DNA of 64,000 bases, taken from assembly GCA_023512135.1 (NCBI GenBank), contig JAIMAG010000001.1, forward strand, positions 186,001 through 250,000, read 5' to 3'. This DNA comes from Terriglobia bacterium. GTDB lineage: Bacteria > Acidobacteriota > Terriglobia > Acidiferrales > UBA7541. The notes under the pieces were generated by a model, which did not search any database, was not told where the DNA came from, and worked only from the letters and a program-made list of their open reading frames with translations. Both the position numbers and the translations under genes were made by a program. Position 1 is the first letter of the stretch, and the number at the start of each line of letters is the position of its first letter. Positions 22,750 to 38,568 of this stretch are shown here, piece by piece.

Positions 22750-22756
22750 GGGTCCC

Positions 22757-22784
22757 CTCACCGACGTTCGTGCAAGTCGGCGAG
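22757..22784 (+). terminator. Weak hairpin after hisA
   Basis: CTCACCGAC (22757-22765) can pair with GTCGGCGAG (22776-22784), with one mismatch and a ten-base loop. There is no T run after it, so it may be a rho-dependent or processing element rather than an intrinsic terminator. The 223 bases between hisA and the next gene hold nothing else I can name. Confidence 0.3.
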
Positions 22785-22972
22785 GCACTGCGTCGCTTTT
22801 GGAGGACTCGCACCGCGCACCACCCGCCATCGTTCTCCGCGGGACTACGAAAACATTTCAGGCCGGCTCGCCCCGATTGCATTAATCGCGCAATGTGGAG
22901 AGGACTGCACGGCTTTCCCGAAACCACATCTTTTCCCGGTTCTGCACCGGGTGCTTCTGTTCAGCTGGTTTT

Positions 22973-24649
22973 CTACCGCTTCGTGAATTTGAAGTTCCGC
23001 ACGCGGTGGCCGTTCAAGATAAAACCGTTGACGGCACCGGAAGGATCGCGCGTGAAGCGAATCGTGCCCAGGGTGGTGAAGAAAACATCCGGCAGCGCCG
23101 GTTTCAGCTCGGCCGGCCGAGCCTTCAGCCGGTGCAGCACCAGCCGGTTTCCTTGCTGGAGCACAATTCGGTAGATGGGCTCAATTTCCTCCGAGACATA
23201 GGTGCCGCTGTAGCTGGCCAGCACGGTCGCTTCCGGATGATGTCGCGGTACACGGACATAGGTGTCTGGTTTATCTCCCGGGAAGCGTTCCAGCAGAATC
23301 GGCTGATCGGCGTTCTGTGTCTCGAAACGAATTTCCCGGTAGGCACGTGGGGTACGGAATCGGTCAGCCGCCAATGGCTGCAAAGCCACGGATTCGCCAC
23401 CGGAGCCGATCCACAGGGCTCCGTTTTGCAGCGTGACTTCGCGAAATGCGTCACGCGCTTCGCTCCAGTACAGGCCCGTCCAGCGAGCAAGCTGCTCCGG
23501 CGCAACCGCTACCGTTTCTGCAGCAGGTAGCCAGTCGGCGGGCTCGGTCATCTCAGCCTCGAGGAAGAGGTCAGCCACGCGACGCACGAGCACGGTTGTG
23601 TTGACGGTCGAGCCGGCGTTGCACAGCAGCGCCACCGAGAAGCGCTGCTCCGGGAACCGGATGAAGTGCGCGCGGTAGCCCGCATCCGAACCCGGGTGAT
23701 GGACGACCGGCAGGCCACGGTACTGTCCGCGCATCAACCCAAACGCGTAATCGAGCGGCTCGCCGCTGTTCAGCGTGCCGCGTTCGACAAGCTGCTGCAC
23801 GAGCCAGTCGCCGCCTACTTTTGGTTCGTAAAAATTCCGGTCCCAGCGGGCCAGGTCTTCGACGGTCGTCAGCAGACTGGTGGCCCCGACTGTGTCGAAC
23901 TGCGTGAGGCTGAGCCCGAAGCCTCCCTGGGCGGTGGGGTTGTAGCCGTAGGCTTGCCCGCGGACAATTTCCGCGTGATTGTCTCGAAAGTGAGTTCGGG
24001 ACATGCCCAGCGGCGCAAAAATGTTCCGCGTGGTGAATTCACGGAAGGATTGTCCGCTGATGCGCTGCACAATCTGCGCCAGCAGCGTGTAGCCGGTGTT
24101 GCAGTAGAGGAACTGGCTGCCGGGAGGAAAATTCAGTGCTCGCTGCCGCCGGAACACGGCGAGCACATCGTCGTCGGTAATCAGGTCGAGTGAGTAGCGC
24201 CAGCCCGCCAACCCCAGCAGTTCCCACTGATCTCGAAGTCCGCTGGTGTGGTGGATCAGGTGGCGGAGGGTGATGGTCGCGCCCAAATCGGGCATTTCGG
24301 GAAGGTACCGAGCGACGGGATCGTCCAGGGAGAGTTTCCCCTGTTGCACCAAGAGCAGGATCGCCGCGACGGTGAAGTGTTTCGAGACCGAGGCGACGTG
24401 GAATACCGTGGACGGACGAATCGGAATGCCGTGATCCAGGTTGGCCATGCCGAAGCCGCGTGCGTAGATCAGCCTGCCCTCGCGCATCACACCCAGAGCA
24501 CAGCCGGGCGAGTCGGGCCGATCCCATTCCGCAAAGATGGGCTGGATGGCCTGCTCCAAGTTCTGCGGCGCATCTGTCGAAGCCGAGAATTGCGTTGTGC
24601 TCAGAGCGATCAGCAGAGTCAGTGCGGTGATTTCCAGCGCAAGGCGCAT
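22973..24649 (-). CDS. Secreted serine hydrolase of the class C beta-lactamase / D-aminopeptidase family
   Basis: A 558-aa protein with signal peptide (LALEITALTLLIALSTT). The penicillin-recognising active-site set is complete: SVSK at residues 87-90, Y-C-N at 182-184 and HPG near 318-320. After the hydrolase domain come about 190 residues of beta-rich C-terminal domain, as in D-aminopeptidases and related esterases. Start ATG 24649 with GGAGA upstream, 49 bases downstream of the RpiR gene, so the two are likely co-transcribed. Its place beside a D-amino-acid cluster suggests action on D-peptides or muropeptides in the periplasm. Beta-lactamase or esterase activity cannot be excluded. Confidence 0.87.
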   Translation of the reverse strand: MRLALEITALTLLIALSTTQFSASTDAPQNLEQAIQPIFAEWDRPDSPGCALGVMREGRLIYARGFGMANLDHGIPIRPSTVFHVASVSKHFTVAAILLLVQQGKLSLDDPVARYLPEMPDLGATITLRHLIHHTSGLRDQWELLGLAGWRYSLDLITDDDVLAVFRRQRALNFPPGSQFLYCNTGYTLLAQIVQRISGQSFREFTTRNIFAPLGMSRTHFRDNHAEIVRGQAYGYNPTAQGGFGLSLTQFDTVGATSLLTTVEDLARWDRNFYEPKVGGDWLVQQLVERGTLNSGEPLDYAFGLMRGQYRGLPVVHHPGSDAGYRAHFIRFPEQRFSVALLCNAGSTVNTTVLVRRVADLFLEAEMTEPADWLPAAETVAVAPEQLARWTGLYWSEARDAFREVTLQNGALWIGSGGESVALQPLAADRFRTPRAYREIRFETQNADQPILLERFPGDKPDTYVRVPRHHPEATVLASYSGTYVSEEIEPIYRIVLQQGNRLVLHRLKARPAELKPALPDVFFTTLGTIRFTRDPSGAVNGFILNGHRVRNFKFTKR

Positions 24650-24698
24650 AGGTTTCTCCAAAACGGATGAGAGACTGCGGAGTGGGTGACCGGACACG

Positions 24699-25592
24699 CT
24701 ACACTTCCCGGTACCAGCGAAAACCGCTGAGCTGTTCCTTGTTCGCTTCGTGCAGCAGGGAAAGAGTGCGCGCCCGCCGGTAGTTGGCACAGGCCACAAT
24801 CAGTACGTTCAGCAACGCCATCGGGGCGACGTAGGAGCCGGCAAAGGAAGGACTGTCGATCGAAGCCAGAAAGCATTCGTGAGAATACCGCGCCACCGGA
24901 GAGACGAAAGTATCCGTGATGCCCACGCAGTAGGCCCCCTTGGCCCGCGCCTGTTTCAATCCTTCGACCGTCTGCCGCAGCCCGCGGCGGAAGCTGATGG
25001 CCAGGACCACGTCTCGGCGGTCAGCGGTGCGCACCAGATGCGAGACCAGACCCGGGGTGGTGCCACTGAAAGCCGGGAGTCCCAGGATGCTGAAATTGTA
25101 GTGCAGGAAATGCACCAGACTGATCGCCAGATCACCGCCGAAGATCAAAATGCGTCGCGCAGCATACAACCTGCGCGCCAGGCGCAGGGCCGCTTCGGCA
25201 TCGATGCTGTGTCGCAGACCCTGCAGGTTCCGCAGATCGCGGTCCAGGGTTCCGCGGATGTGCGAGGGGATGTCGGAATCACGCGCAGTGGCGTCGCGCA
25301 TCAGGTCGAACGGCGTAGCCTGGATCACCGCCAGCTCATGGAGATAGCGCTGGAAATCTCGAAAGCTGGCGAACCCCATGCTCTGCACGATGCGCAGCGT
25401 GGTGGCGGGATCGGTGCGCAGACGTTCGGCCAGGCCCCGTACGCTCAACAGGACAAACTCCCGCGGATGCTCCAGCACAGGTCGGATCAGCTCGCGCCGC
25501 CTGCGGCTCAGTCGAGCGAGCAGGTCGCTCACGCTGGGCAGGTGGGGGCGGCCAGCTTGCCCGGATGCGCCGTACTTTGGCCGACGGGCCAT
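24699..25592 (-). CDS. RpiR/MurR-family transcriptional regulator with SIS domain
   Basis: 297 aa. N-terminal RpiR-type HTH at about residues 20-95 (LSVRGLAERLRTDPATTLRIVQSMGF), then a sugar-isomerase (SIS) domain at about 135-265 (RRILIFGGDLAISLVHFLHYN, DVVLAISFRRGLRQTVEGL, CVGITDTFVSPVARYS). Members of this family sense sugar phosphates; MurR senses MurNAc-6-phosphate. It is transcribed divergently from the TonB receptor, with a palindrome in the shared region, so it probably controls both directions. The SIS Ser/Thr that holds the sugar phosphate is in AISFRRG, where Phe-Arg replaces the more usual S-x-S/G pattern. Confidence 0.9.
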   Translation of the reverse strand: MARRPKYGASGQAGRPHLPSVSDLLARLSRRRRELIRPVLEHPREFVLLSVRGLAERLRTDPATTLRIVQSMGFASFRDFQRYLHELAVIQATPFDLMRDATARDSDIPSHIRGTLDRDLRNLQGLRHSIDAEAALRLARRLYAARRILIFGGDLAISLVHFLHYNFSILGLPAFSGTTPGLVSHLVRTADRRDVVLAISFRRGLRQTVEGLKQARAKGAYCVGITDTFVSPVARYSHECFLASIDSPSFAGSYVAPMALLNVLIVACANYRRARTLSLLHEANKEQLSGFRWYREV

Positions 25593-25743
25593 GTGCCTGG
25601 CCAGCCAGATAAAACAGAACCCCCCTGCAAGTCAAATGAAATATTTGTTGACACTCCCGGGAGGTTCTGCCGGAACGTCCAATATTCGGCAATTGTTTAT
25701 CTGCATCATATGTTGCGATTGCGCCGATACAAAAATTTTGTTC

Positions 25744-25773
25744 TTGACAGGCTGTTTTGAATTGTGCTATTTG
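25744..25773 (+). promoter_or_regulatory. Promoter of the TonB-receptor operon
   Basis: TTGACA at 25744-25749 and TATTTG at 25768-25773, spaced 18 bases, in a clearly AT-richer stretch between the divergent RpiR and receptor genes (25593-25907). The -10 match is moderate. Confidence 0.5.
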
Positions 25774-25797
25774 GGCGCGAAATTGGCGCATCGAATA

Positions 25798-25813
25798 TGC
25801 AACGTATGTTGCA
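25798..25813. promoter_or_regulatory. Palindromic operator candidate
   Basis: TGCAACGTATGTTGCA is a perfect 6-4-6 palindrome about 25 bases after the -10 box and 95 bases before the receptor ATG. Half-site matches (ATGTTGCG near 25708, CGTTGCAAT near 25872) lie on both sides. Position fits a roadblock or repressor site for the divergently encoded RpiR protein. Confidence 0.5.
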
Positions 25814-25907
25814 AATTGAGGAATGGTTCATGAAAAGGCGGACGGGGACACCTATCCTCAGACCAAACATTCGTTGCAATTCACGTTTCATCCGGGAGGG
25901 AATTCCC

Positions 25908-28900
25908 ATGCCAGGACAAGTGATGCGGGTGCGGGGATGGCTCTGGGTGCTGGGACTGCTGGGGCTGCTCGGGGTCTCCAGCGCTCTGTACGGTCAGACA
26001 GCTTCCACGGGTACCGTTGTGGGTACGGTGACGGACGCCAGCGGTGCGGTGGTCCCCCGGGCAACCGTGTCTTTATCGGAAGAGGGCACGGCGGCGGTGC
26101 GAAAGACGGAGACGAACGACCTGGGTCAGTACATCTTCACGAATGTTGTGCCCGGCCGCTACACCGTCACGGTGACGGCGCCAGGATTTCGGCAGGCTGT
26201 TGTTTCCGACGTGCAGGTCGAGGTGGCAAAATCTACGCGCGTGAACGTGGTGGTGCAGCTTGGCGAGCTGGCTGAGACAGTGGAGGTCACGGCGGGTGCC
26301 CAGGCCGCCTTGCAGACGGTCGATGCCACCGTGGGGGACGTGGTGGATACGACTTCACTGGTCAACCTGCCCACGGTGACGCGTCGTACCGTTGAGCTCG
26401 TTTTTCTCCAGGTGGGCGCGCATCCCTGGACAGGTTGGGCGGGCAACGGAGACAGCGGCACCGTAGCCGGGGCGCGACCGGATCAGAACACGTTTCTGCT
26501 GGATGGATTGGACATCTCCGACACCCAGGTGGGCGGTACCTGCTGTGGCAACATCGGCATGGGCATTCCGATTCCGGTGGAGTCCATTGCCGAGTTTCGC
26601 GCCAACATCACCAATCAGAACGCCAGCTTCAATCGTTCCCCGGGCGGGCAATTCACCCTCACCAGCCGGCGCGGCACGAACAATTTCCACGGAGCCCTCT
26701 ACTGGTACCATCGCAATGACAATCTGAACGCGAACTCCTGGGCGCGGAACCGGCTGAAGCAGCCGAATCCGGAGCTCAAAGACAACCGGTACGGCTTCCG
26801 CGTGGGCGGTCCGTTTCTGCCGGACAAGCTGTTTTTCTTTGTCAACATGGAAGGGAGGCGTTTTCCGCAAAAGACAGACGTGGCCGGCGCGGTGCCCAGC
26901 GATACGCTGCGGCAGGGTATTTTGCGGTTCCGCGACCTGCAGGGCAACGTGGTCAGCTACAACGTTGCGAGCTTCGATCCGCGCGGCATCGGCATGAGCC
27001 CTGCCATCGCCACACAGTTCTCGCTGATCCCTGCGGGCAACGACACCACCGGCGGCGACGGCCTGAACACCATCCTGCTGCGCGGCCCGACCGCCTCGGA
27101 CCAGAACAACGACAACATCCTTGCGCGGCTGGACTATCAGCTCCATCCAAACTGGCGAACCAGCTTCACCTGGACCTGGGCGCAGAACCGGTTCCTCTCG
27201 CCCAATTTGAATCCTGGAATTGACTGGCGAGGTGGACCGAATGCCATCAAAACGGTAGCGTCGATTCCCAACGATCCGTATCACTACAATCTGGGCGTCA
27301 TCGGTCAGATTACGCCTTCGTTGAACAGCGAAACGCGCGTGGGCCTCACCCAGACGACCATCGAGTTCAACATGCCCGACCCGGAGCCGCTGTTCCCGCA
27401 AGCCGGCGTGGCGTTGAACCTGATTGGCGTGGAAGAGCCGATTCAAATTGCCAGCGCCCGCAAACAACTGGGGATTTCCCGCACGTGGCAGGTCGCTCAG
27501 AACATGAATTGGGTGAAGGGGAGCCACGTGTTCCAGTTTGGCGGTCAGTATCAGCACCTGTGGTTCTACCATTCCCGCGTGGGCGCCGTTCCCCTGCACG
27601 TCAATCCCATCGCGGATATTGGTGGCACCGTCTTTACCACCATTCAACCCTCTTCCCGTCCACCCACCTGTGCGCAGGGGGTGATCGAGACGAACTGCTT
27701 GCGCCCGGGTGACGTGGCCCGCTGGAACCAGTTCTATGCCATGTTGCTGGGCTTGGTGGATACGGTGGGGTTGTTTGCCGTCCGGGATCCGAACGGCAAC
27801 GATCTGCCCGGCACCCCGCCGTTGGTCAACGACGGCACCTGGCACAACATCCAGCTCTACTTCAACGACATCTGGCGGATGAGCAACTCACTCACCCTGA
27901 CGTTCGGAGTGAACGGGATGATCGAGGTGCCTTACAAAGACTCCCAAGGACGAAGGCACTTCCTGATTCGTCTGGATACGGGACAACCCCTGTCGGTCAA
28001 CGACTACTTGCGTGAGCGTGAGCTGGCGGCGCGACTGGGACGAGGCGTCAACCCCGGGCTGGCCTTTGCGCCGGTGGACTTTTTCGATCGCCGAGAGTTC
28101 CCGTTGCACCGCAGTCTGTCCCCGGTCGTTTCGGCGGCTTGGAATCCGGCGTTCGAAAACGGCTGGTTTAGGACGCTGTTCGGGAATCGCTCGACCGTGT
28201 TCCGGGGTGGTTACCGTTTGTCTCACCATCGACCGATGGCCGTCGGATTCGTGCAGTTCCCGCAGATCGGCAATTCCGCGATCGGCACGCCGCACACGCT
28301 GAATGCGCCGGCGTGCAATTTCAGTGGGTCGGGTGGGGCCGGCTGCACTCCGGGCAGTACGGATCCGGCTTTATCCCAGTTCCGCGTGGGTGTGGATGGT
28401 CCGGCGCCCTTCCCGCCTGTGCCCCAGCAGATTCCCATTCCGTTCGTGCCGGCAATTCCGTTCAGCAACCCTACGCGCCTGCACTGGGACCCGGACTACA
28501 AATACGGCTATGTGCACAGCGCGAACTTCACCATCCAGCGGGAATTGCCCTGGGATCTGGTGCTGGAGCTGGGCTACATTGGCCGCTTTGGCCGTCGTCT
28601 GGAGATCAGCAAAAACATCAACGCCGTTCCCTTTTTCATTGCGGATCTGAGCGGGCTTTCTCCGCAGACGTTTGCGCAGGCATTTGACGCTGTCGCGCGA
28701 CAGTTGCGTGCCGGTGTTCCTCCGGCCAGTGTTACTCCGCAGCCCTGGTTTGAGAACAGCCTGGGACCGGGGGCAACGGTCGCTCTGGCCAGTTCCAATC
28801 TGACGAACTTCATCAACGGGTTTGTGGTGAACCTGTGGCTGAACGCCATTGACCCGATGCTCGTGGCCATGCGCGGCGAAGCAGCAGCCATCAACAATCG

Positions 28901-29756
28901 GCAGATCCGCCAGACCATTTCGCACACCTATGGTGGCTGGAACAACTACAATGCGTTCTTTGTCAGCACCGAGAAACGCTTTTCGCAGGGCTTAACCTTT
29001 ACCTTTAACTACACGCTGTCGAAAAATCTGGACACCCTCGGAGCCATCGCCGACTCGGCCGGGGGGATGAGCATGAATCCGTACGACCTCTCCTACGCGT
29101 ACGGGCCATCGCTGTCCGATCGGACCCACGGGGTCAACGCACACTGGGTGTACGAGCTTCCCTTCGGACGCGGGCGGTACTTCGATGCGCAGGGATGGCT
29201 CGACAGATTCGTCGGCGGCTGGCAGGTTTCCGGTATCTTCACCTACTTCACCGGGCGCCCGCTGTTTGTCACTCAGGGTGGGCAGCCGTTTGGTTCGTTC
29301 GCGGCTCAGGAAAGTGCTCCGGCCATCCGGGACCCGCAGGCCAACCCCGGCCGCTATCTGGGAGTGCGTGGGTCAGGAGGTGTGGGCACGGCAGGCGATC
29401 CGGCCAACGGTGGCACCGGCATGAACCTGTTTGCGAATCCGCAGTATGTCTACGAGAGCTTCCGCTTCTTCGAAATCAGCCGCGACCGGCGCAGCTCGCG
29501 CGGATTGATTCGTGGCCTGTCGCGGTGGACGTTCGATATGTCATTCAGCAAGCGGACGTCCATCACCGAACGGATCAGCACGCGCCTGAGCTTCGATTTC
29601 TTCAACATCTTCAACCATCCGTTGTTCAACGATCCACAACTGGATTTGTTGAACCCGGCTACCTTTGGCGTGATTACCAGCCAGCCGGGCGATCCGGGAA
29701 ACGGCGACTTCTGGGCACCCCGCCAGATTCAGTTCGGATTCCGGATCGAGTTTTAG
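25908..29756 (+). CDS. TonB-dependent receptor, Oar-like, with N-terminal carboxypeptidase-regulatory domain
   Basis: A 1282-aa outer-membrane protein. Signal peptide (LWVLGLLGLLGVSSALYG), then a carboxypeptidase-regulatory-like beta domain at about residues 32-115 (GTVVGTVTDASGAVVPRATV, GRYTVTVTAPGF), a plug region (LPTVTRRTVELVF, FLLDGLDISDTQVGG) and a long barrel ending in FGFRIEF with a terminal Phe, as expected for BAM-assembled proteins. FFNIFNHPLFNDP near the end is typical of the Oar-like family of acidobacteria. The start is ATG 25908 with GGGAGGG upstream; the frame is open from 25764 but that extension has no signal peptide. Heads a five-gene operon and probably imports its peptide or oligomer substrate. 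Confidence 0.92.
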   Translation: MPGQVMRVRGWLWVLGLLGLLGVSSALYGQTASTGTVVGTVTDASGAVVPRATVSLSEEGTAAVRKTETNDLGQYIFTNVVPGRYTVTVTAPGFRQAVVSDVQVEVAKSTRVNVVVQLGELAETVEVTAGAQAALQTVDATVGDVVDTTSLVNLPTVTRRTVELVFLQVGAHPWTGWAGNGDSGTVAGARPDQNTFLLDGLDISDTQVGGTCCGNIGMGIPIPVESIAEFRANITNQNASFNRSPGGQFTLTSRRGTNNFHGALYWYHRNDNLNANSWARNRLKQPNPELKDNRYGFRVGGPFLPDKLFFFVNMEGRRFPQKTDVAGAVPSDTLRQGILRFRDLQGNVVSYNVASFDPRGIGMSPAIATQFSLIPAGNDTTGGDGLNTILLRGPTASDQNNDNILARLDYQLHPNWRTSFTWTWAQNRFLSPNLNPGIDWRGGPNAIKTVASIPNDPYHYNLGVIGQITPSLNSETRVGLTQTTIEFNMPDPEPLFPQAGVALNLIGVEEPIQIASARKQLGISRTWQVAQNMNWVKGSHVFQFGGQYQHLWFYHSRVGAVPLHVNPIADIGGTVFTTIQPSSRPPTCAQGVIETNCLRPGDVARWNQFYAMLLGLVDTVGLFAVRDPNGNDLPGTPPLVNDGTWHNIQLYFNDIWRMSNSLTLTFGVNGMIEVPYKDSQGRRHFLIRLDTGQPLSVNDYLRERELAARLGRGVNPGLAFAPVDFFDRREFPLHRSLSPVVSAAWNPAFENGWFRTLFGNRSTVFRGGYRLSHHRPMAVGFVQFPQIGNSAIGTPHTLNAPACNFSGSGGAGCTPGSTDPALSQFRVGVDGPAPFPPVPQQIPIPFVPAIPFSNPTRLHWDPDYKYGYVHSANFTIQRELPWDLVLELGYIGRFGRRLEISKNINAVPFFIADLSGLSPQTFAQAFDAVARQLRAGVPPASVTPQPWFENSLGPGATVALASSNLTNFINGFVVNLWLNAIDPMLVAMRGEAAAINNRQIRQTISHTYGGWNNYNAFFVSTEKRFSQGLTFTFNYTLSKNLDTLGAIADSAGGMSMNPYDLSYAYGPSLSDRTHGVNAHWVYELPFGRGRYFDAQGWLDRFVGGWQVSGIFTYFTGRPLFVTQGGQPFGSFAAQESAPAIRDPQANPGRYLGVRGSGGVGTAGDPANGGTGMNLFANPQYVYESFRFFEISRDRRSSRGLIRGLSRWTFDMSFSKRTSITERISTRLSFDFFNIFNHPLFNDPQLDLLNPATFGVITSQPGDPGNGDFWAPRQIQFGFRIEF

Positions 29757-29782
29757 CCTGATGGGCATGCGCACCCCCGCGG

Positions 29783-29809
29783 CGGGCGAGCTGACAGCCA
29801 GCTCGCCCG
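29783..29809 (+). terminator. Hairpin between receptor and D-amino-acid enzyme genes
   Basis: CGGGCGAGCTG (29783-29793) pairs perfectly with CAGCTCGCCCG (29799-29809) around a five-base loop. No T run follows, so it may attenuate or stabilise the receptor message instead of ending transcription, letting the receptor be expressed at a different level from the enzymes. Confidence 0.5.
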
Positions 29810-29839
29810 TTGTCGTGGGGAAGTCTGGGAAGCGGCTTC

Positions 29840-30934
29840 ATGCACATTGACGAGCTACCGACGCCGGTTCCGCTGTTGGATCTCGACATAATGGAGCGGA
29901 ACCTGGAACGCATCGTCTCGCTCTGTCGCGAGGCCGGCGTCGCCTACCGACCGCATGTGAAGACTCACAAAACGCCGGAACTGGCTCGCGCGCAGGTGCT
30001 GGCCGGAGCGACCGGAATCACCTGCGCGAAGGTGAGCGAAGCCGAGGTGATGGCCCGGGCCGGGTTGCGGGACATCTTCATCGCCTACCCGACAGCCGGC
30101 CGCCGTCGGCTGGAGCGGCTGGAGCGGCTGGCGCGGGAGAGCACGATCTCGGTGGGCGTGGATTCTGCGCAGGGCGCAAAAGATTTGAATGAGTATTTTC
30201 AGTCCCGCCGGCGCCAGATTTCTGTCCTGCTGGAGGTCGATACCGGGCATCACCGCTGCGGAGTGCTGCCGGGCAACGCGCTGGAATTTGTGCGGTTCCT
30301 GGGGAATCTGCCGGCTCTGCGTTTCCGCGGCATTTACACGCATGAAGGGCACGTCTACGCAGACGGCGAGTTGTGGGAACGACTGGACCGCGCACGGTGC
30401 GCCGGCGAAACCATGGCACAGCTGGCCGGGGCGTTGCGCGCTGCCGGGCTGCCCTGCGCTGTGGTCAGCGTCGGTGCCAGCCCGTCGCAGCATGCCGCCT
30501 GCGCCATCCCCGGCGTGACCGAAAACCGGCCCGGAACCAACGCCCTGAACGACGCCACTCAGGTGCACCTCGGCGCCTGCGGGTGGGAAGACTGTGCGCT
30601 GAGCTACCTGTGCACCGTGGTTAGCCGACCGGCAGCGGAGCGGGTGATCATTGACGGCGGCTCCAAGACGTTCACCTCCGACCATCTTTCCGGTTGGAAG
30701 GAATTCGGGTTCCTTCCCGAACATCCTGAGCTGCGGTTCGTCGCTGCCTCTGAGGAACACGGAATTCTGAAGACCACCGCTGGAAACGGCTCCAACCTGC
30801 AGGTAGGGGAACGGATTCGAGTCATCCCCAGCCACGTCTGCGGAAGCTTGAATCTCCACGACCGCCTGTACACAGTGCGAGGCGACCGGGTCGTGGGCGA
30901 ATGGCGCATCGCTGCGCGCGGCTGTGTGGAGTGA
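29840..30934 (+). CDS. D-serine dehydratase / D-threonine aldolase family PLP enzyme
   Basis: A 364-aa fold-type III PLP enzyme. The PLP Lys lies in YRPHVKTHKTPEL (residues 32-44 region); the metal pair typical of eukaryotic-type D-serine dehydratase and D-threonine aldolase is in IPSHVCGSLNLHDRL (His-x-Cys). No signal peptide, so it acts in the cytoplasm, after import. It degrades D-hydroxy-amino acids to keto acid and ammonia or to glycine and aldehyde; which reaction cannot be decided. Position between a receptor and three exported hydrolases supports a D-amino-acid catabolic role. Confidence 0.88.
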   Translation: MHIDELPTPVPLLDLDIMERNLERIVSLCREAGVAYRPHVKTHKTPELARAQVLAGATGITCAKVSEAEVMARAGLRDIFIAYPTAGRRRLERLERLARESTISVGVDSAQGAKDLNEYFQSRRRQISVLLEVDTGHHRCGVLPGNALEFVRFLGNLPALRFRGIYTHEGHVYADGELWERLDRARCAGETMAQLAGALRAAGLPCAVVSVGASPSQHAACAIPGVTENRPGTNALNDATQVHLGACGWEDCALSYLCTVVSRPAAERVIIDGGSKTFTSDHLSGWKEFGFLPEHPELRFVAASEEHGILKTTAGNGSNLQVGERIRVIPSHVCGSLNLHDRLYTVRGDRVVGEWRIAARGCVE

Positions 30935-30951
30935 CCGCTTTAGGAGGCAGC

Positions 30952-32394
30952 ATGACACGGTGTGTGTTGGCAACACTGCTTTTGCTCGCGCTGCCGGTGC
31001 CGGCGTGGCCGCAGTCAGCACCCGCCAGGCCCGTCGCTGAAGACCCGGAAATCACCGCGGCACTGGCCCTGGTCGAAGCCCGACTCGAGACCGAACGCAT
31101 TCGCAGGAAGATTCCGGGGCTTTCGGCTGCGGTGGTCTATGATCAGCAAATCCTCTGGTCGAAAGGGTTCGGATTCGCCGACGTGGAGCGGCGCATCCCG
31201 GCCACCCCGCGAACCATCTACCGCGTGGCTTCCATCACCAAGCTGTTCACCGCAACGATGTTGATGCAGTTGCGAGATGCCGGCAAAGTTGGCCTGGAAG
31301 ATCCGGTGACCCGGTACGTTCCGGAGCTGCAGCTGCGGAGCCGCTTTGCCGATTCTCCTCCGATCACGCTGTTGCAACTGGCCACGCACACGTCCGGGCT
31401 TTCCCGGGAAGCGCCGATGGACTACTGGCGCACGCTGCGTTTCCCTGCGGTGGAGGCGATGGTGGCGGCGCTGACGCAGGATGGCGAGCGAATCTTCCCC
31501 CCCTATCGCGAATGGAAATATTCCAATGTCGGCTACGCCATCCTGGGGCTGGCGCTTTCGCGGGCTGCCGGTCAGCCTTACTTCGACTATGTGGAACAGA
31601 ACATCCTGCGACCGCTCGGGATGCACGACAGCGGGTTTCAACCCACGGCTGGGCTGGCGACCGGTTACGCTCTGCCTGAAGGCGATGCTCCGCCGAAACC
31701 TGTATTCCAGCCCGACTATGGCGGCTACGGGCCGGCCACCAGTCTGTACACGCACGTCGAAGACATCGCCAAGTTCATCTCCCTGCAGTTCCGCGACGGG
31801 CCCGTTGGAGGCAATCAGATTCTTCGCGGCAGCTCGCTGCGCGAGATGCATGCCGCACACTGGATTCAGCCCGACTGGCAAAGCGGCTGGGGCATCGGCT
31901 TTCGAATCACCCGCATAGGTTCCTACACCGCCATCGGTCACGGAGGCGGGATTCAGGGCTTCCGCACCGACGTTTCTTTGATTCCTGCGCTGAAACTGGG
32001 CGTGGCAGTGTTCACGAACACGAACAGTGACCCTGATGAACTGACCGCTATGGTGCTCGAGCTGCTCGGGCCGGTGGTCGAACGCGCGCAGCAACGAAGC
32101 CGACCCGCACCGCCGCCGGCTCCTGCGGAGTGGCGGCACTACCTCGGTGTCTACCGAACGGATTTCGGCAGTCGCGTGCGCATTCGCCTCCACGAGCATC
32201 GGTTGGAGATGGTGCCGGCGGAAGAACCGGCCGCCACACCGGTTGTGCTGACCGCCATCGCACCACATCAGTTTCGCATGCAGGGTGGCTGGGCGAGCGG
32301 AGAGGTGTTGCGGTTTGAAGTGGATAGCCAGGGGCAGGTGACCGGCGTGTGGATCGGAGCTTACCCTGCACGAAAAGAAGCTTTGCCGGAGTAA
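30952..32394 (+). CDS. Secreted serine hydrolase of the beta-lactamase / penicillin-binding family
   Basis: A 480-aa protein with signal peptide (VLATLLLLALPVPAWP). Active-site motifs: SITK at residues 94-97, YSN at 190-192 and HGGG at 330-333. A C-terminal beta domain of about 100 residues follows (WRHYLGVYRTDFGSRVRIR). It begins 17 bases after the D-amino-acid enzyme with TAGGAGG upstream. Second such hydrolase in this cluster (the other is at 22973-24649), the two sharing only family-level similarity. Likely cleaves D-peptide, D-ester or muropeptide substrates in the periplasm. Confidence 0.87.
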   Translation: MTRCVLATLLLLALPVPAWPQSAPARPVAEDPEITAALALVEARLETERIRRKIPGLSAAVVYDQQILWSKGFGFADVERRIPATPRTIYRVASITKLFTATMLMQLRDAGKVGLEDPVTRYVPELQLRSRFADSPPITLLQLATHTSGLSREAPMDYWRTLRFPAVEAMVAALTQDGERIFPPYREWKYSNVGYAILGLALSRAAGQPYFDYVEQNILRPLGMHDSGFQPTAGLATGYALPEGDAPPKPVFQPDYGGYGPATSLYTHVEDIAKFISLQFRDGPVGGNQILRGSSLREMHAAHWIQPDWQSGWGIGFRITRIGSYTAIGHGGGIQGFRTDVSLIPALKLGVAVFTNTNSDPDELTAMVLELLGPVVERAQQRSRPAPPPAPAEWRHYLGVYRTDFGSRVRIRLHEHRLEMVPAEEPAATPVVLTAIAPHQFRMQGGWASGEVLRFEVDSQGQVTGVWIGAYPARKEALPE

Positions 32395-32428
32395 ATCGGG
32401 GTCCGACTCTCTGAAGGAGAACAGCAAG

Positions 32429-34096
32429 ATGAAGCATGCGTTCTTGTGGATCGCTTTCGTGCTGCTTGTCGCACAGCCGGGCGGGCGAGTCCAGTTGGAG
32501 GACCCGTTCGACGTACTGATAACGGGTGGCCGCATCGTGGATGGCAGCGGTGCGCCTTGGTATCGTGCCGATGTGGGCATCCGAGATGGCCGCATTGCCG
32601 CGATCGGAAAACTGGCGGGCCAGCCTGCGCGAAAAACCATTTCGGCCGAGGGGATGGTAGTTGCTCCGGGCTTTGTGGACATGATGGGAGGCAGCTCGTA
32701 TCCCCTGCTGGTAGATCCGGCCAGCGCTCAGAGCAAGCTGCGGCAGGGCATCACCACGATGCTGGTTGGTGAAGGCGGCTCGCCCGCGCCCCAGAGCCCG
32801 GCCACTGCCGCCGAAGATTCCGCCGGAGGGCTGCGCATCACCTGGCAAACGTACGCAGAATATTTCCGCCTGCTGGAACAGAAAGGCGTAGGTCTGAATG
32901 TGGTGCACAACGTCGGCGCCGCACAGGTACGTCGGATCGTCGTGGGCGAAGCTGATCGGAAGCCGACCCCGGCGGAGCTCGATCGGATGAAGGAGCTGGT
33001 GGCAGAGGCCATGCGCGATGGCGCCGTCGGCCTTTCCACGGCATTGATCTATCCCCCGGGAGCCTATGCCACTACCGAAGAAATCATCGAGCTGGCGCGC
33101 ACGGCCGCAGAATATGCCGGCGTCTATTTCACGCACATGCGGAACGAAAGCGGAGCCCTGCTCGAAGCCATCGAGGAAACGATCCGCATCGGCAGGGAAG
33201 CCAGCATTCCCGTGCATATCTATCACCTGAAAGCGGCCGGACAGCAGAACTGGCCGCTGATGGCGCAGGCGATTGGCCGCATCGCTGAGGCGCGTCGGCA
33301 GGGTGTGGACGTGACTGCCGACATCTATCCCTACATCCGCAACGGCATCGGTTTGCGCTCGTTCATCCATCCGCGCCATTACGCTCAGGGCGATGCTGCC
33401 TTTCTCCCGCGACTGACTGACCCGGACCTGCGCCACCGCCTGCGTCAGGAAATCGAAAACGACGCGAGCTGGGAAAACTGGTATGTGCACGTGGGCCGCG
33501 ACTGGAACAATGTCCTGATTTCTGCAGTGGGCGAAGGGGTTCGTCGCGACCTGCAGGGCCTTTCCATGCAGCAGGCGGCGGAACGACTCGGCGTGGATCC
33601 CTGGACAGCGTTTTTCGATCTGGTGCGACAGGGGCCGGTGTTCGTGGCCCCGAGGAGCATGAATGAGGAGCAGAAACATCTGGCGCTGCGCGCTCCGTTC
33701 GTGGCCATCTGCACCGATGCGGCTCCCATTCACGCTGAGGCAGCGGGAAAAGCGCTGGGGCAGAGCTTTCATCCGCGTGCCTTTGGGGCTTTTGCGCGTG
33801 TACTCGCGAAGTATGTGCGGGAAGATCGAGTGATCTCGCTGGAGGAAGCAATTCAAAAAATGACTTCCCTTCCTGCCAACCGTTTGCGACTCTATGACCG
33901 GGGCCGGCTCAGTCCGGGGCTTCGCGCCGATGTGGTGGTGTTTGATCCAGAACGAGTGCAAGACACAGCCACTTTCACAAAACCGCTTTCGTATTCGGAG
34001 GGATTTGTCTACGTATTGGTGAATGGCCAGCCGGTGATCGAGCAGAATCGCTGGACCGGCGTTCTGCCCGGCACGGTCATCCGTCACCGTCGCTGA
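32429..34096 (+). CDS. N-acyl-D-amino-acid deacylase family protein (D-aminoacylase-like), exported
   Basis: A 555-aa amidohydrolase with signal peptide (FLWIAFVLLVAQPGG). It matches the D-aminoacylase family by ITGGRIVDGSGAPWYRADVG, GLSTALIYPPGAYATTEEI, YFTHMRNES, VHIYHLKAAG and ICTDAAP, which hold the later His and Asp ligands. The early HxH after APGFVD is replaced by MMGGSS, as I recall for a subgroup of this family, so the metal centre may be mononuclear. Releasing D-amino acids from N-acyl forms would feed the PLP enzyme two genes upstream. Confidence 0.83.
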   Translation: MKHAFLWIAFVLLVAQPGGRVQLEDPFDVLITGGRIVDGSGAPWYRADVGIRDGRIAAIGKLAGQPARKTISAEGMVVAPGFVDMMGGSSYPLLVDPASAQSKLRQGITTMLVGEGGSPAPQSPATAAEDSAGGLRITWQTYAEYFRLLEQKGVGLNVVHNVGAAQVRRIVVGEADRKPTPAELDRMKELVAEAMRDGAVGLSTALIYPPGAYATTEEIIELARTAAEYAGVYFTHMRNESGALLEAIEETIRIGREASIPVHIYHLKAAGQQNWPLMAQAIGRIAEARRQGVDVTADIYPYIRNGIGLRSFIHPRHYAQGDAAFLPRLTDPDLRHRLRQEIENDASWENWYVHVGRDWNNVLISAVGEGVRRDLQGLSMQQAAERLGVDPWTAFFDLVRQGPVFVAPRSMNEEQKHLALRAPFVAICTDAAPIHAEAAGKALGQSFHPRAFGAFARVLAKYVREDRVISLEEAIQKMTSLPANRLRLYDRGRLSPGLRADVVVFDPERVQDTATFTKPLSYSEGFVYVLVNGQPVIEQNRWTGVLPGTVIRHRR

Positions 34097-34149
34097 GTTC
34101 ACCGATTCGTGTGAGCTCGTGCCGCGAGATTCCAGGAGGAACAACCGCG

Positions 34150-35187
34150 ATGAACCCCATCCTGCGACGTGCCGCAAAGCCCGTGCTTGCCCTGTTGCTG
34201 GTTCTGCTGGGGACGACCGCGATCCCCGGGCAAACGCCCACCGCCAGGCGGAACACGCGTTTGGAGCAGGCCCTGCGCGAGTCGCTCGCGCGGTCGCCCG
34301 GTATCTGGGGCGTCAGCGTCAAACATATCGAACGTCAGGAACTGGTCGAAATTCGTGGCGAAGAGCGTTTCCAGATGGCCAGCGTGTTCAAGGTGCCGGT
34401 ATTGCTGGAGCTGCTTCACCAGGTGCGGGAAGGGAAACTTTCGCTCGAGGAGCGCGTGGAGTGGACCGCGCCAGAGCGCTACTTTGGCAGCGGCATCCTG
34501 GTGACTCTGGCGCCAGGCCTGCGTCCCACGATTCGCGACCTGGCCACCCTTATGATGATCGTCAGCGACAACGCCGCAACCGACATCCTTTGCCATCGCC
34601 TGGGCTTTGACAGAATCAATGCCCGTCTGCGCAGCCTGGGTCTGTCGAAGACGGCCGTGGACATGGGCACACGGGACCTGATCCTTCATGCCCTCGGCCT
34701 GCCGGAGGAAAAGTATCGAGGGATGACAGTGGACGAGTTGCGCCGTTTCGACTGGGCGGCCCACGAAACGCAGGTTCGGCGCAACCAGCAGCAGTTTCTC
34801 CGGGAATGTCCGAACTGCTCGACGCCGGCGGAGATGACGTTGCTGCTTGAAAAAATCGTCACCGGTCAGGCGCTCGACCCCGAGGGAACGCAGACGCTGC
34901 TGGACATCCTGTTCCTGCAACAGTTCAATCAGCGGCTACCGCGCTGGATTCCTTACGGCGTGCGATTCGCCCACAAGACGGGCACGTTGACGGCTCCGGT
35001 GTGGGTGGTGAACGATGCCGGCGTGCTCTTCCTGCCGAACCAGCAGCGCGTGGTTGTTACGGTGTTCAGCCGGGGAGAGGATCTCGGTCTCAGCGACGGC
35101 GAGCGGAAAGCTGCCATTGCTGCCGCCGAGGATCAAATTGCGGAAATCGGACGCATGGTCTTCCAGTTCTATCGCGGTCAGGACTGA
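34150..35187 (+). CDS. Class A beta-lactamase-like serine hydrolase
   Basis: 345 aa with signal peptide (PVLALLLVLLGTTAIPG). The class A motifs are present: SVFK at residues 78-81, SDN at 139-141 and KTG at 276-278. The omega-loop Glu expected about 27 residues after SDN is not obvious (the stretch has DMGTRDLILHALGLPEEKY), so hydrolysis of beta-lactams is not assured. GGAGG precedes the ATG at 34150. Last gene of the receptor operon; in this setting a D,D-peptidase-type or beta-lactam-scavenging role is as plausible as antibiotic resistance. Confidence 0.82.
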   Translation: MNPILRRAAKPVLALLLVLLGTTAIPGQTPTARRNTRLEQALRESLARSPGIWGVSVKHIERQELVEIRGEERFQMASVFKVPVLLELLHQVREGKLSLEERVEWTAPERYFGSGILVTLAPGLRPTIRDLATLMMIVSDNAATDILCHRLGFDRINARLRSLGLSKTAVDMGTRDLILHALGLPEEKYRGMTVDELRRFDWAAHETQVRRNQQQFLRECPNCSTPAEMTLLLEKIVTGQALDPEGTQTLLDILFLQQFNQRLPRWIPYGVRFAHKTGTLTAPVWVVNDAGVLFLPNQQRVVVTVFSRGEDLGLSDGERKAAIAAAEDQIAEIGRMVFQFYRGQD

Positions 35188-35357
35188 ATCCAAAGTTTGA
35201 CGACGGCCGCGACTTCGCCCTCCTGCCTTCGGCGCGGTGTTTGACCGCGGAGGATTCGGCGGCAGCCTTCGCAGCCCACAGCCCGGCCCCAGATGCAAAC
35301 GACTCGGTGCAGAATACACCGGAGGGTTTTGGATTGTGTTACTGTTGTGCTGTTCAT

Positions 35358-35445
35358 GCCCGGGTGGCGGAATGGCAGACGCTGGGGACTTAAAATCCTC
35401 TGGGGATTTTACCCCGTGTGGGTTCAACTCCCACCCCGGGCACCA
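35358..35445 (+). tRNA. tRNA-Leu (UAA)
   Basis: A complete class II tRNA. The acceptor stem pairs GCCCGGG (35358-35364) with CCCGGGC (35435-35441), followed by A and an encoded CCA. The anticodon loop is CTTAAAA with anticodon TAA between stems GGGGA and TCCTC. There is a variable arm, and the T-loop is GTTCAACTC. A recombinase gene points at its 3' end, the usual sign of a tRNA used as an integration site. Confidence 0.95.
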
Positions 35446-35459
35446 ACATTCTGTTGGAC

Positions 35460-36545
35460 TTATTGAATGAGGGCAGTTGCCCGTTTTCCGGGCTCGAAAA
35501 GCCCGGTGTCAGTTGTGGTGTCAGTTGGCTTCCGCACGATGGCCTCGACCGCGTCTTGGATCCGGGAAGGCATCAAATGGGCATAGCGGAGTGTCATCTG
35601 GATCGTCTTGTGACGCATGGCCTCTTTGATTTCCAGGAGACTCCTGCCCGCCATGGCCATGCGGCTGGCGAACGTGTGACGCAGATCGTGCCATCTCAGA
35701 TCTGAGACGTTCGCCTTCGAGAGGACTTCTTTCCACCAGTCTCTGTGGTCTTAGTAGGATTTTCTGGGGCATACGAATTCGGAGCCGGGATGGAGAGCGC
35801 GGAGGCTCAGCAGCGCCTTGCGGGCTTCCGAGTTCAGACGCACGTACTCTTTCTTCCCGCTGCCTTTGCCCTTGGCGATGGTGATCAGGTTGAGCCTTAG
35901 ATCGACATCACTCTAGCGGAGGCAACACTGCTCGCTCCTCCGGAGCCCGGTGTGGAGTGCCAGGTCCAGCTCTGGCTCGCGCTGCGGCCAGTGCTGACGG
36001 ATTGCTTGCCGGATCGCTATCTCTTCTTTGTCTTCGAGCCAGCGTACCCTCTCGTTATTTTCTCGCTGCAGCGGGACCAGCCGCGCCGGGTTATTTGAAA
36101 CCTTCCCGTTTGTGATCGCTATGGAATAGATTCGGCTCATGGCCGCACGATAGCGATTGAGTGTGGCCGGCTTTCGACCTTGCTGCGCCAATTAGATCAA
36201 CTTTCTGCTGATTTCCTAGGGTGTGATAGAGTCTGCCGACCGGTTGCCAAACCACTCTTGCAGCTTTTTCACCTTGGCCGCGTTCAACGTTCCCGGCCTT
36301 CCACTTACTTTTGCATGTTCGCGGGCAATTCTGACCAGGTCGGAGAATGAAATGGCCGGCGCCTGGCGCAGCGACTCTGGAAGCTTCTCGCCCATCAGGG
36401 CTTCTGTCTTTCGTTTGGCGTAGAGCTTAATGGCTGCGCCCTTGGTTCCGGCTTTCTCCCGACGAATGCGGCCACTGCTGTCCGCAAAACGAATCCACCA
36501 GACACCGGTTCCCGGCACCTTCTCAAAGACTCCCCATGGTTTCAT
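35460..36545 (-). pseudogene. Tyrosine recombinase (phage-type integrase) with four in-frame stop codons
   Basis: Read from ATG 36545, one uninterrupted frame covers a full integrase: an N-terminal beta domain (GVWWIRFADSSGRIRREK), a SAM-like core-binding domain (LNRYRAAMSRIYSIAI), and the catalytic domain with Arg in HTGLRRSEQ, HDLRH, the RHKTIQ motif and the Tyr in LRYAHL. Stops interrupt it at 36216 (TAG), 36192 (TAA), 35913 (TAG, where Trp is usual) and 35751 (TAA). There is no frameshift and all catalytic residues survive. Its 3' end is 15 bases from tRNA-Leu. Its start overlaps the small upstream gene by four bases. Confidence 0.8.
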
Positions 36546-36733
36546 GCGCCCCCTTCCTTCTTGCGCGGCCGGCCCCCCAGCTTCGCCCATTGGCTGAGCT
36601 GCTCTCGGGAATAGCGACGCGCACGCGCCAAACCGCCGCGCCTCGCCCACCTGCGTCTCTGCTCGGGAGTCGTGCGGAACACTCGGGCGATCCCGCCCAA
36701 CTTGCCGAGAGCCACTGCATGAGGATTCTTCAT
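36542..36733 (-). CDS. Small basic protein coupled to the integrase
   Basis: 63 aa, rich in Arg and Gly, with a thrice-repeated GG motif: ALGKLGGIA, ARRGGLARA and AKLGGRPRK. Similar short proteins occur in integrated elements, but I cannot assign a function; a DNA-binding accessory (excisionase-like) role would fit. Its TGA overlaps the integrase ATG (ATGA), so the two are translationally coupled. No Shine-Dalgarno site is visible. Unlike the integrase, the frame is intact. Confidence 0.55.
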   Translation of the reverse strand: MKNPHAVALGKLGGIARVFRTTPEQRRRWARRGGLARARRYSREQLSQWAKLGGRPRKKEGGA

Positions 36734-36739
36734 GCTTTA

Positions 36740-36769
36740 AACTTACTTAACGCTATGTAAGATTGTCAA
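36740..36769 (-). promoter_or_regulatory. Promoter candidate for the small gene and integrase
   Basis: A consensus TTGACA (minus strand, 36769-36764) with a weak TAAGTT 18 bases on. The interval contains an inverted repeat, CTTAC and GTAAG, that may be an operator. Confidence 0.35.
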
Positions 36770-37282
36770 GAGGAATCTGTTGAGAGGAGCCGCGGACCCT
36801 TCCGAGAGCTTCGGACTGCCATTTCGCACCGGTCATAGAGGCGGCGGTGCACGATTAGCCGGCGAAGAAAACCGGTCACGATGCCTGCCAGTTTCTGCCT
36901 GGAAGTTTGGGGAGAGCGACATCAGGGAATTTCAGGTAAGTCAACGAGTCGCAGGTGTATGACGGTTTCAGACCACAGCCATGTCTTCATGTCATGATCT
37001 CGATGGCTGTCGTGTTGAATGAAAGGCGAACCGTGGTTTGTCCCTCCCCGAGGTAGTACCCCGATGAGCGTAGGCTCCCTGGTTTCCCGAGATAACGGCG
37101 AGGGGGTGTGGGTGGTAAAAAGGCGGGGAGGTCCATCAGGTACCCTTCCCTCGCGACAGATATTTTTTTGAGTTGCTAGTTCTATGGGCTAAAAGTCTAC
37201 AACTCCGGACTGATGTGGAGACTCTCAGATGCTGACTGAATGTGGACAGACACAGCCCGATTCTCGGCCCCTCAGCTTTTTT
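36770..37282. other. Non-coding stretch between integrase module and IS element
   Basis: About 510 bases without a convincing gene. Frames here are short and have no ribosome site or known motif. Only weak hairpins are visible, for example around 37190-37225. Probably decayed mobile DNA. Confidence 0.5.
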
Positions 37283-38568
37283 GGGTGATGTAAAGAATTG
37301 TGTGGAAATTGGGAAGAGAGGGTGTTTCTTTCAACAGGTTGAGAAAACTGAAGGAAGGAGAACACCCTCATGAACGCAGAGTCGCATTCACGGCCCCGGA
37401 GCCTAGAGCAAGAGCCAGGTTCACTGCAAGGGGAGATTTGGTCTCAGTTCCGAGCCGTGTTGAAGCAAGAGTTGAAGACCATGATCGAGCAAGCCCTAGA
37501 AGAAAAACTCACCGCGCACTTGGCGGCCCGCTCCCATGAAAGCGCCGCCGGGCGGCGGGGCTATCGCAACGGGCACTGCCGGTGCCGCCCCTGACCCGCC
37601 ACGGAGAAATTCCTGACCTGGTCGTCCCGCGCGCGGAGGAAGGAGGCGTCGAGTTTCAGACGCTGGGCCGCTATCAACGCCGACAATTGGAAATCGACAA
37701 GATCCTGGGGCAACTGTTTCTGGCGGGGATCAGCAGCCGGCGGCTGCGGCAACTGAGCGAGGCCCTCTACGGCCAACGGGTCAGCGCCACGACCATTTCC
37801 CGGACCACGGCGCACTGGGCCGAGGAACTCGAGCAGTACCGCACGGCGCCGATTGCCGACGAGGAGGTCGAGTTTCTCTTCCTGGACGGGATCAGCGAAC
37901 GAGTCCGGGAGCTCGGCGTGGAGCGGAAAATTCTGCTCTGCGCGTTAGGGAGGACCGCGGCGGGGAAGAAACGCATCCTGGGATTCCGTCTGGTGGACGC
38001 CGAAGACACGGCCAGTTGGAAGGCTCTGCTGATGGAGCTGAAGGTTCGTGGTCTGACAGGAAAGCATCTGCGACTGATCACGGTGGATGGCTGTCCCGGG
38101 CTGCTGGCGGCGCTGAAGGAGATGTACCCGTTTCAGAGGGTCCAGCGCTGTCTGGCTCACCGGCTGCGCAACGTAGTGGTGAAACTCAAGCGCCATCAGT
38201 GCGGGCCAGTGATGGCCGAGTGCAAGCGCGTCTTCGCCGCTCCCTCGAAGTCGGAGGCAGCCCGCCGCTTCCGGGTCTGGGTCCAGCGCTGGCAAGTCGA
38301 AGCCTAGCGCGTGGTGCGCTGCCTGGAGAAAGATTTCTACCACCTGCTGCACTACTACGCTTTTCCGCCCGAGCTGTGGAAAAAGATCCGGACGACGAAC
38401 GTGCTGGAGAGAACCTTCTGGGAGTACCGACGACGCACGCGGCCCACGCAGGTCTTTCCTAATCCGGAGAGTGCGAAGAGGATTTATTACGGCGTGACCG
38501 ACTACCTCAACCAGAACTGGAAGGAGCGCCCTCGATGAGCATTTTCTACAAAAATCCTTGCATTACCC
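37283..38568 (+). mobile_element. Decayed IS256-family insertion sequence
   Basis: About 1.29 kb bounded by imperfect inverted repeats: the left end begins GGGTGATGTAAAGAATTGTG at 37283, and the right end, read inward from 38568, begins GGGTAATGCAAGGATTTTTG. The interior is a Mutator/IS256-type transposase broken by a frameshift and a stop. I see no matching 8-9 bp target duplication at the borders (GCTTTTTT against GTTGCATT), so the element is old or was rearranged. Confidence 0.75.
37370..38538 (+). pseudogene. IS256-family transposase, frameshifted and interrupted by TAG
   Basis: The N-terminus runs from ATG 37370 to GRRGYRNGHCR at about 37585, where the frame must shift to continue in the frame that covers 37582-38307. 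DDE residues are recognisable: Asp in FLFLDGISER, Asp in ITVDGCPGLL and Glu in VLERTFWEYRRRTRP. A TAG at 38305-38307 separates QRWQVEA from RVVRCLEKDFYHLLHYY in the same frame. With both lesions repaired the protein would be close to the normal 390-400 aa. Certainly non-functional as it stands. Confidence 0.85.

Follow-up and report, generated by a model that had tools for sequence, protein, structure and literature searches.

A seven-gene block under predicted RpiR control in an Acidobacteriota genome, a probable unit for uptake and catabolism of D-amino-acid peptides

A 64,000-nucleotide stretch of the genome of a Terriglobia bacterium (phylum Acidobacteriota; GCA_023512135.1, contig JAIMAG010000001.1; G000:C44:186001-250000), here called the window, contains a block of seven genes encoding a regulator of the RpiR family, a TonB-dependent receptor (TBDT) and five enzymes. 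We conclude that this block is probably a self-contained unit for uptake and catabolism of D-amino-acid peptides, most likely peptidoglycan stem peptides, under control of the RpiR regulator. The genome comprises 2.83 Mb and is 97% complete.

Results

Reading of the open reading frames (ORFs) together with Pfam searches resolved the block into two divergent transcripts (Table 1). The minus-strand transcript carries rpiR followed by the gene of a serine hydrolase, SH1, and the plus-strand transcript comprises, with short intergenic gaps, the genes of the TBDT, a pyridoxal phosphate (PLP) enzyme designated DTA, a second serine hydrolase, SH2, a D-aminoacylase-fold protein, DAcyl, and a class A beta-lactamase-fold protein, BlaA. 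N-terminal signal peptides were readable by eye in TBDT, SH1, SH2, DAcyl and BlaA, which suggests export of these proteins; inspection of the N-termini of RpiR and DTA by eye revealed no readable signal peptide. The original prediction, made from the sequence of this DNA, had grouped these seven genes (22973-35187) as a cluster for scavenging D-amino-acid peptides or muropeptides under RpiR control, and all seven are present.

The genus is represented by one further genome, G001, in which only 84 bp separate hisA from a tRNA-Leu(taa) stretch. Comparison of the window with G001 (blastn of L219) revealed that the match on the hisA side ends at 22754 and resumes on the tRNA-Leu side at 35319, and the interval of 12.56 kb between hisA and tRNA-Leu in the window is exactly the cluster. 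Because the whole block is missing from a genome of the same genus in which hisA lies next to tRNA-Leu, the seven genes form one unit. This adjacency was found in G001 alone among 22 hisA loci scanned, and the RpiR complement of G001 consists of a distant paralogue only.

To this regulator gene we related 65 further loci: 63 from a scan of the genome collection with the RpiR alignment, the paralogue of the same genome and a locus of genome G043. The homologues belong almost exclusively to metagenome-assembled genomes of Acidobacteriota. At least one enzyme family acting on peptidoglycan peptides or D-amino acids was encoded near RpiR in 52 of the 66 loci. TBDT genes were found in 36 loci, D-aminoacylase-like enzymes in 26, N-acylamino-acid racemases of the enolase superfamily in 23, M15 D-Ala-D-Ala dipeptidases in 22, S13/PBP4 proteins in 18 (in many cases as a fusion with a D-aminoacylase-like enzyme), PF00144 hydrolases in 17, gamma-glutamyltranspeptidases in 15, GNAT proteins in 13, M19 dipeptidases in 6 and NlpC/P60 proteins in 5. 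Further neighbours were tricorn, S9 and S15 peptidases, M23 enzymes and an amino-acid permease. A count of 34 loci with PF00144 hydrolases was discarded as inflated because its seed was a fusion of such a hydrolase with M15; the value of 17 was obtained after the M15 part had been cut from the seed. As controls, 20 regions of 20 kb each were drawn at random from relatives; they contained one TBDT and one permease but none of the tested peptidoglycan and D-amino-acid families. The grouping with RpiR hence recurs in dozens of genomes and not in the control regions, and the gene content of these loci agrees with the predicted D-amino-acid and muropeptide theme.

The enolase-superfamily partner was initially considered an L-Ala-D/L-Glu epimerase. 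This reading was dropped because searches of NCBIfam and PDB gave the N-acylamino-acid racemase/o-succinylbenzoate synthase type, with 326-333 bits for TIGR01928, above its cut-off, and 353-362 bits for the structures 1sja and 1r0m. In several RpiR loci a GNAT gene adjoins the racemase gene.

A search for exact inverted repeats in the non-coding DNA of the 66 loci, for which no motif was supplied, returned as top palindromes a single family, TGNAACA-NN-TGTTNCA. Of sites matching at least 11 of 12 positions, intergenic DNA contained 39, spread over 32 loci, and coding DNA contained 2. Permuted palindromes, of which 300 were tried, averaged 0.41 sites and never exceeded 6, and the random control regions contained none. 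The motif was recovered separately in close and in distant RpiR groups, and its sites precede TBDT (20), rpiR (18) and racemase (7) genes. These counts overstate significance because related loci are non-independent. Independent of them is a ranking by a held-out matrix, trained without any site from the own genome and scanned over 188 kb of own DNA, which placed the window site at 25798 first, the promoter of a paralogous unit on contig C24 second and the window site at 25702 third; all five best sites lie at the RpiR/TBDT promoter of the window or at the promoter of the paralogue. Moreover, 25798-25813 is the sole exact match to TGNAACRNNTGTTNCA in the whole genome. The relevant enzymes in most loci, the empty controls and the recurrent operator together make RpiR control of a putative D-amino-acid-peptide scavenging operon, exerted via the predicted operator in the RpiR/TBDT promoter, a well-supported proposal, as originally suggested.

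The profile of the regulator matched the full-length RpiR structures 4ivn and 8ju9. Its SIS domain scored 56 bits (cut-off 25) and its HTH_6 domain 21 bits, under the cut-off of 28 yet correctly placed. Judged by its sequence, the protein is a member of the RpiR/MurR family with an N-terminal HTH_6 and a C-terminal SIS domain. Phosphosugar-binding SIS domains hold the phosphate by the motif SxSGxT. This motif is canonical in the aligned 4ivn (SSSGSTKE) and replaced by SFRRGLRQT in the window protein, whose SIS domain has its closest solved structure in 3sho, not in MurR. By these features the domain is unlikely to be a phosphosugar sensor of the MurR type, and the supposed resemblance to sensors of cell-wall sugars was not borne out. 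Because SxSGxT is missing and 3sho is nearest, a phosphosugar such as N-acetylmuramic acid 6-phosphate is an unlikely ligand; we infer that the ligand is probably a small compound of acidic, amino or N-acyl-D-amino type.

DTA had been described as a D-serine/D-threonine PLP enzyme, a description that could be refined. Its metal motif SHVC differs from the SHVD of the D-threonine aldolases 7dib and 4v15 and shares HxC with D-threo-3-hydroxyaspartate dehydratase 3wqc (NHAC). By motif and domains (fold-III PLP and D-ser_dehydrat), DTA matches the dehydratase type and not the D-threonine aldolases with HxD. As SHVC stands where the aldolases have SHVD, dehydration is a more likely reaction than aldol cleavage. 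Homologues of DTA adjoin an amino-acid permease gene in G053 and G045, and the neighbouring RidA in G053 fits enamine products.

The AlphaFold model of DAcyl (predicted local distance difference test 86) gave 1v4y, 1m7j and 3gip as top Foldseek matches, with a TM-score of 0.89 (target length), and the modelled protein has the D-aminoacylase fold, as had been anticipated; its best-scoring comparison was N-acyl-D-glutamate deacylase. The usual metal ligands are a different matter. On comparison with the zinc ligands of subtype V (PMC12017989), both the metal cysteine (Cys97 of PpOngB) and the HxH alpha site were found to be absent from DAcyl and ten relatives. In this subgroup Glu115, His236, His266 and Asp430 are invariant (alignment A4), Glu115 near the position of the subtype V cysteine. 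The metal site of DAcyl, whose model carries no metal, has likely been rebuilt, and DAcyl and its ten relatives possibly represent a new metal-site type.

These features bear on the question whether the block encodes a pathway for oxidised amino sugars (GlcNAc1A) like the ong cluster of Pseudoalteromonas prydzensis, a route for oxidised chitin akin to D-amino-acid catabolism (PMC9537276, PMC12017989). Four families are common to the block and ongR, ongOT, ongB and ongC (PMC9537276), namely RpiR, which is a repressor in the ong cluster, a TBDT, a D-aminoacylase-fold enzyme and a PLP enzyme. The kinase KdgK, RidA, a GH20 hexosaminidase and an SSS symporter of the ong cluster are however absent from the block, which adds serine enzymes of the DD-peptidase fold; the SH and BlaA enzymes would have no role in the ong pathway. 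OngB is a cytosolic, GlcNAc1A-specific deacylase with the subtype V cysteine, whereas DAcyl apparently is exported, by its readable signal peptide, and lacks this cysteine; DAcyl scored about 180 bits with OngB structures and 252-271 bits with D-aminoacylase and N-acyl-D-Glu deacylase. Membership in the ong type was set aside on these grounds and appears improbable.

Three enzymes of the penicillin-binding fold within 12 kb could also suggest an island for beta-lactam defence or antibiotic degradation. BlaA has invariant SxxK (S78/K81), SDN (S139-D140-N141) and KTG (K276-T277-G278) motifs (alignment A2). The position of the deacylating Glu166 is taken by Thr187, as judged by alignment to PBP-A L158E (2j9o) extended by two residues in an omega region of low model confidence; on an ungapped reading homologues have Thr (L181) or Asp (others) at this position. 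By its sequence BlaA thus lacks the deacylating glutamate and is PBP-A-like. As threonine stands at the Glu166 position and PBP-A and LRA-5 are among the nearest folds, BlaA is probably not a resistance enzyme, in line with the original proposal of a feeding role. SH1 and SH2 had been called D-aminopeptidase-type hydrolases. Their best NCBIfam models are indeed D-aminopeptidase (DAP) for SH1 and AmpH for SH2, at 161 bits against a cut-off of 443 and 133 bits against 266, respectively, and by these scores neither belongs to the DAP or AmpH equivalogs. Both have HxG instead of KTG as third motif, as do D-aminopeptidase- and esterase-type PF00144 enzymes. No displayed beta-lactamase model reached its cut-off, and a sensor of the BlaR or AmpR type is absent from the block. 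We consider a beta-lactam island highly improbable.

Related loci displayed further arrangements. L124 joins RpiR, TBDT, DAcyl, racemase, SH and a class A-like BlaA homologue, and L121, a RpiR-TBDT-GNAT-racemase locus, holds the closest relative of the window DAcyl (60%). In many gp2 genomes, and in RpiR loci that include L082, L094 and L120, PBP4 (S13) and a D-aminoacylase-like amidohydrolase form a single ORF of about 1070-1130 amino acids, and L120 additionally encodes a PF00144-M15 fusion. In gp2 loci L074-L100, RpiR directly follows ilv genes in many genomes (ilvC, and ilvB in the vicinity), which we treated as a conserved location and not as a pathway. The own genome contains a second, paralogous unit (G000:C24; L062, 813-11451) of RpiR2 (39%), TBDT2 (43% to TBDT over 1310 amino acids), a PF00144 hydrolase and a tricorn-type protease, with an operator of identical type, TACAACAGTTGTTGCA, before RpiR2, and on G000:C6 (L149, 7817-9749), distant from any RpiR gene, a pair of GNAT and N-acylamino-acid racemase genes. 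L128 (JAIMBE010000114.1), titled 'Bacillota bacterium HOT.MB2.40', carries an Acidobacteriota RpiR2-TBDT2 pair, and the title is probably wrong.

The GC content of the block (62%) is near that of the other own contigs (64%), and a quick look revealed no att-like ends at its junctions. Directly after the cluster (window 35358-38307) lie tRNA-Leu(taa), a short ORF (36216-36650) that appears integrase-like by eye and has no Pfam match, and a Mutator-family transposase (37582-38307); downstream GC is lower (55-60%). TBDT begins with a carboxypeptidase-regulatory domain (CarboxypepD_reg), followed by an outer-membrane beta-barrel.

Table 1. Features of the seven-gene block in window coordinates
Feature	Position	Strand	Remarks
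Whole unit	22755..35318	.	~12.56 kb between hisA and tRNA-Leu; missing in same-genus genome G001
SH1, predicted exported PF00144 serine hydrolase	22973..24649 (ORF to 24799)	-	PF00144 230 bits; SVSK, YCN, HPG
RpiR regulator, HTH_6 + SIS	24699..25592	-	atypical SIS motif SFRRGLRQT
Predicted RpiR operator 2, TGCATCATATGTTGCG	25702..25717	.	10/12 to consensus; held-out matrix rank 3
Predicted RpiR operator 1, TGCAACGTATGTTGCA	25798..25813	.	95 bp before TBDT start; held-out matrix rank 1
Possible third, weak operator, CCAAACATTCGTTGCA	25863..25878	.	held-out matrix rank 5
TBDT, Oar-like TonB-type outer-membrane protein	25908..29756 (ORF opens 25764)	+	PF13620 73 bits, PF25183 418 bits
DTA, predicted cytosolic PLP fold-III enzyme, dehydratase type	29837..30934	+	PF01168 (Ala_racemase_N) + PF14031 (D-ser_dehydrat); SHVC
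SH2, predicted exported PF00144 serine hydrolase	30952..32394	+	PF00144 + weak DUF3471; SITK, YSN, HGG
DAcyl, predicted exported D-aminoacylase-fold amidohydrolase	32429..34096	+	Amidohydro_3; subtype V Cys and HxH absent
BlaA, predicted exported class A beta-lactamase-fold serine enzyme	34150..35187 (ORF opens 34111)	+	PF13354; SVFK, SDN, KTG

Discussion

The results suggest the following mechanism. RpiR would bind the palindromes between rpiR and the TBDT gene and probably repress both transcripts until a ligand binds to its SIS domain. Stem peptides from the peptidoglycan of dead or turning-over cells would then be imported by the TonB-type outer-membrane protein, and the exported SH1, SH2, PBP-A-like BlaA and DAcyl would free D-residues in the periplasm. 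A permease encoded outside the block would carry these inward, and cytosolic DTA, aided by RidA, would dehydrate D-Ser- or D-Thr-like amino acids to keto acids. Elsewhere in the own genome, matches to amino-acid permeases number nine and those to the RidA family three.

Several observations weigh against this interpretation. The block contains no inner-membrane transporter and no gene for an amidase, PBP4, M15, NlpC/P60 or racemase, and the peptidoglycan substrate rests for this reason on the relatives, whose gene partners make peptidoglycan a likely source; the block by itself points to D-amino-acid peptides. DTA and BlaA each recur beside RpiR in just 2 of the 66 loci, homologues are numerous in the own genome (10 matches for PF00144, 7 for DAcyl), and the loci and operator sites stem from related genomes. 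The substrate might alternatively be D-amino-acid peptides other than those of peptidoglycan, or N-acyl-D-amino acids, derived from non-ribosomal peptides, aged protein or lipopeptides. The enzymes of the window are generic for D-residues, none in the block is specific for glycan or peptidoglycan, and a TBDT beside a D-aminoacylase was earlier interpreted as serving uptake of N-acyl-D-amino acids (PMC3400609). Homologues of the regulator, however, adjoin D-Ala-D-Ala dipeptidase, PBP4, NlpC/P60 and M23 genes, which points to stem peptides, and we regard this alternative as rather unlikely. Altogether the original observation was confirmed and its interpretation partly supported.

Among known systems, the marine ong cluster is the nearest working model of the block, while the nearest by purpose are catabolism of the ykf type and those TBDTs for which N-acyl-D-amino acids or peptidoglycan were predicted as substrates (PMC3400609). 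Murein peptides are catabolised by ykfABCD in Bacillus and mpaA-ycjG-pepD in E. coli, and an association of ykfBC was noted in Acidobacterium and Solibacter (PMC2954226). Use of stem peptides would be common to these systems and the unit proposed here, and NlpC/P60 proteins with SH3 domains lie beside some homologous RpiR genes. The window differs by the absence of an epimerase, NlpC/P60 and L,D-carboxypeptidase and by its regulator and outer-membrane receptor; the racemase type of the relatives, too, is unlike an L-Ala-D/L-Glu epimerase. N-succinylamino-acid racemase and GNAT together form a pathway by which D-amino acids become L-amino acids (Sakai et al. 2006, cited in PMC8762209). This enzyme pair corresponds to adjacent genes of several homologous RpiR loci and to one gene pair of the own genome, and the block has the PLP dehydratase-type enzyme in its place. 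RpiR control of the racemase-GNAT pathway was not found in the literature searched. PBP-A of Thermosynechococcus elongatus (2j7v) acts as DD-carboxypeptidase and DD-endopeptidase on muropeptides (PMC11189452). It shares with BlaA the class A beta-lactamase fold without Glu166; the two differ in sequence (about 25% identity), and the omega region of BlaA is longer.

Tentatively, and with slightly less confidence than would make it an even call, we extend these findings to a phylum-wide regulon of Acidobacteriota for eating peptidoglycan-derived D-amino-acid peptides, which would comprise a branch of RpiR regulators with a non-phosphosugar SIS domain, one conserved operator, a PBP4-D-aminoacylase-like fusion whose metal site is rebuilt, and PBP-A-like enzymes that serve feeding. 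No paper on such an RpiR-operator regulon was found in the literature searched, whose coverage left out most subscription journals.

Few groups of soil bacteria are as abundant and as poorly understood as Acidobacteriota, and wall material of dead cells is a large nitrogen pool in soil. The 16 bp operator, the regulator and the list of targets presented here make feeding on D-amino-acid peptides directly testable in these organisms. They also provide candidate enzymes of the penicillin-binding fold with a possibly nutritional role, which bears on the annotation of 'beta-lactamase' genes from soil.

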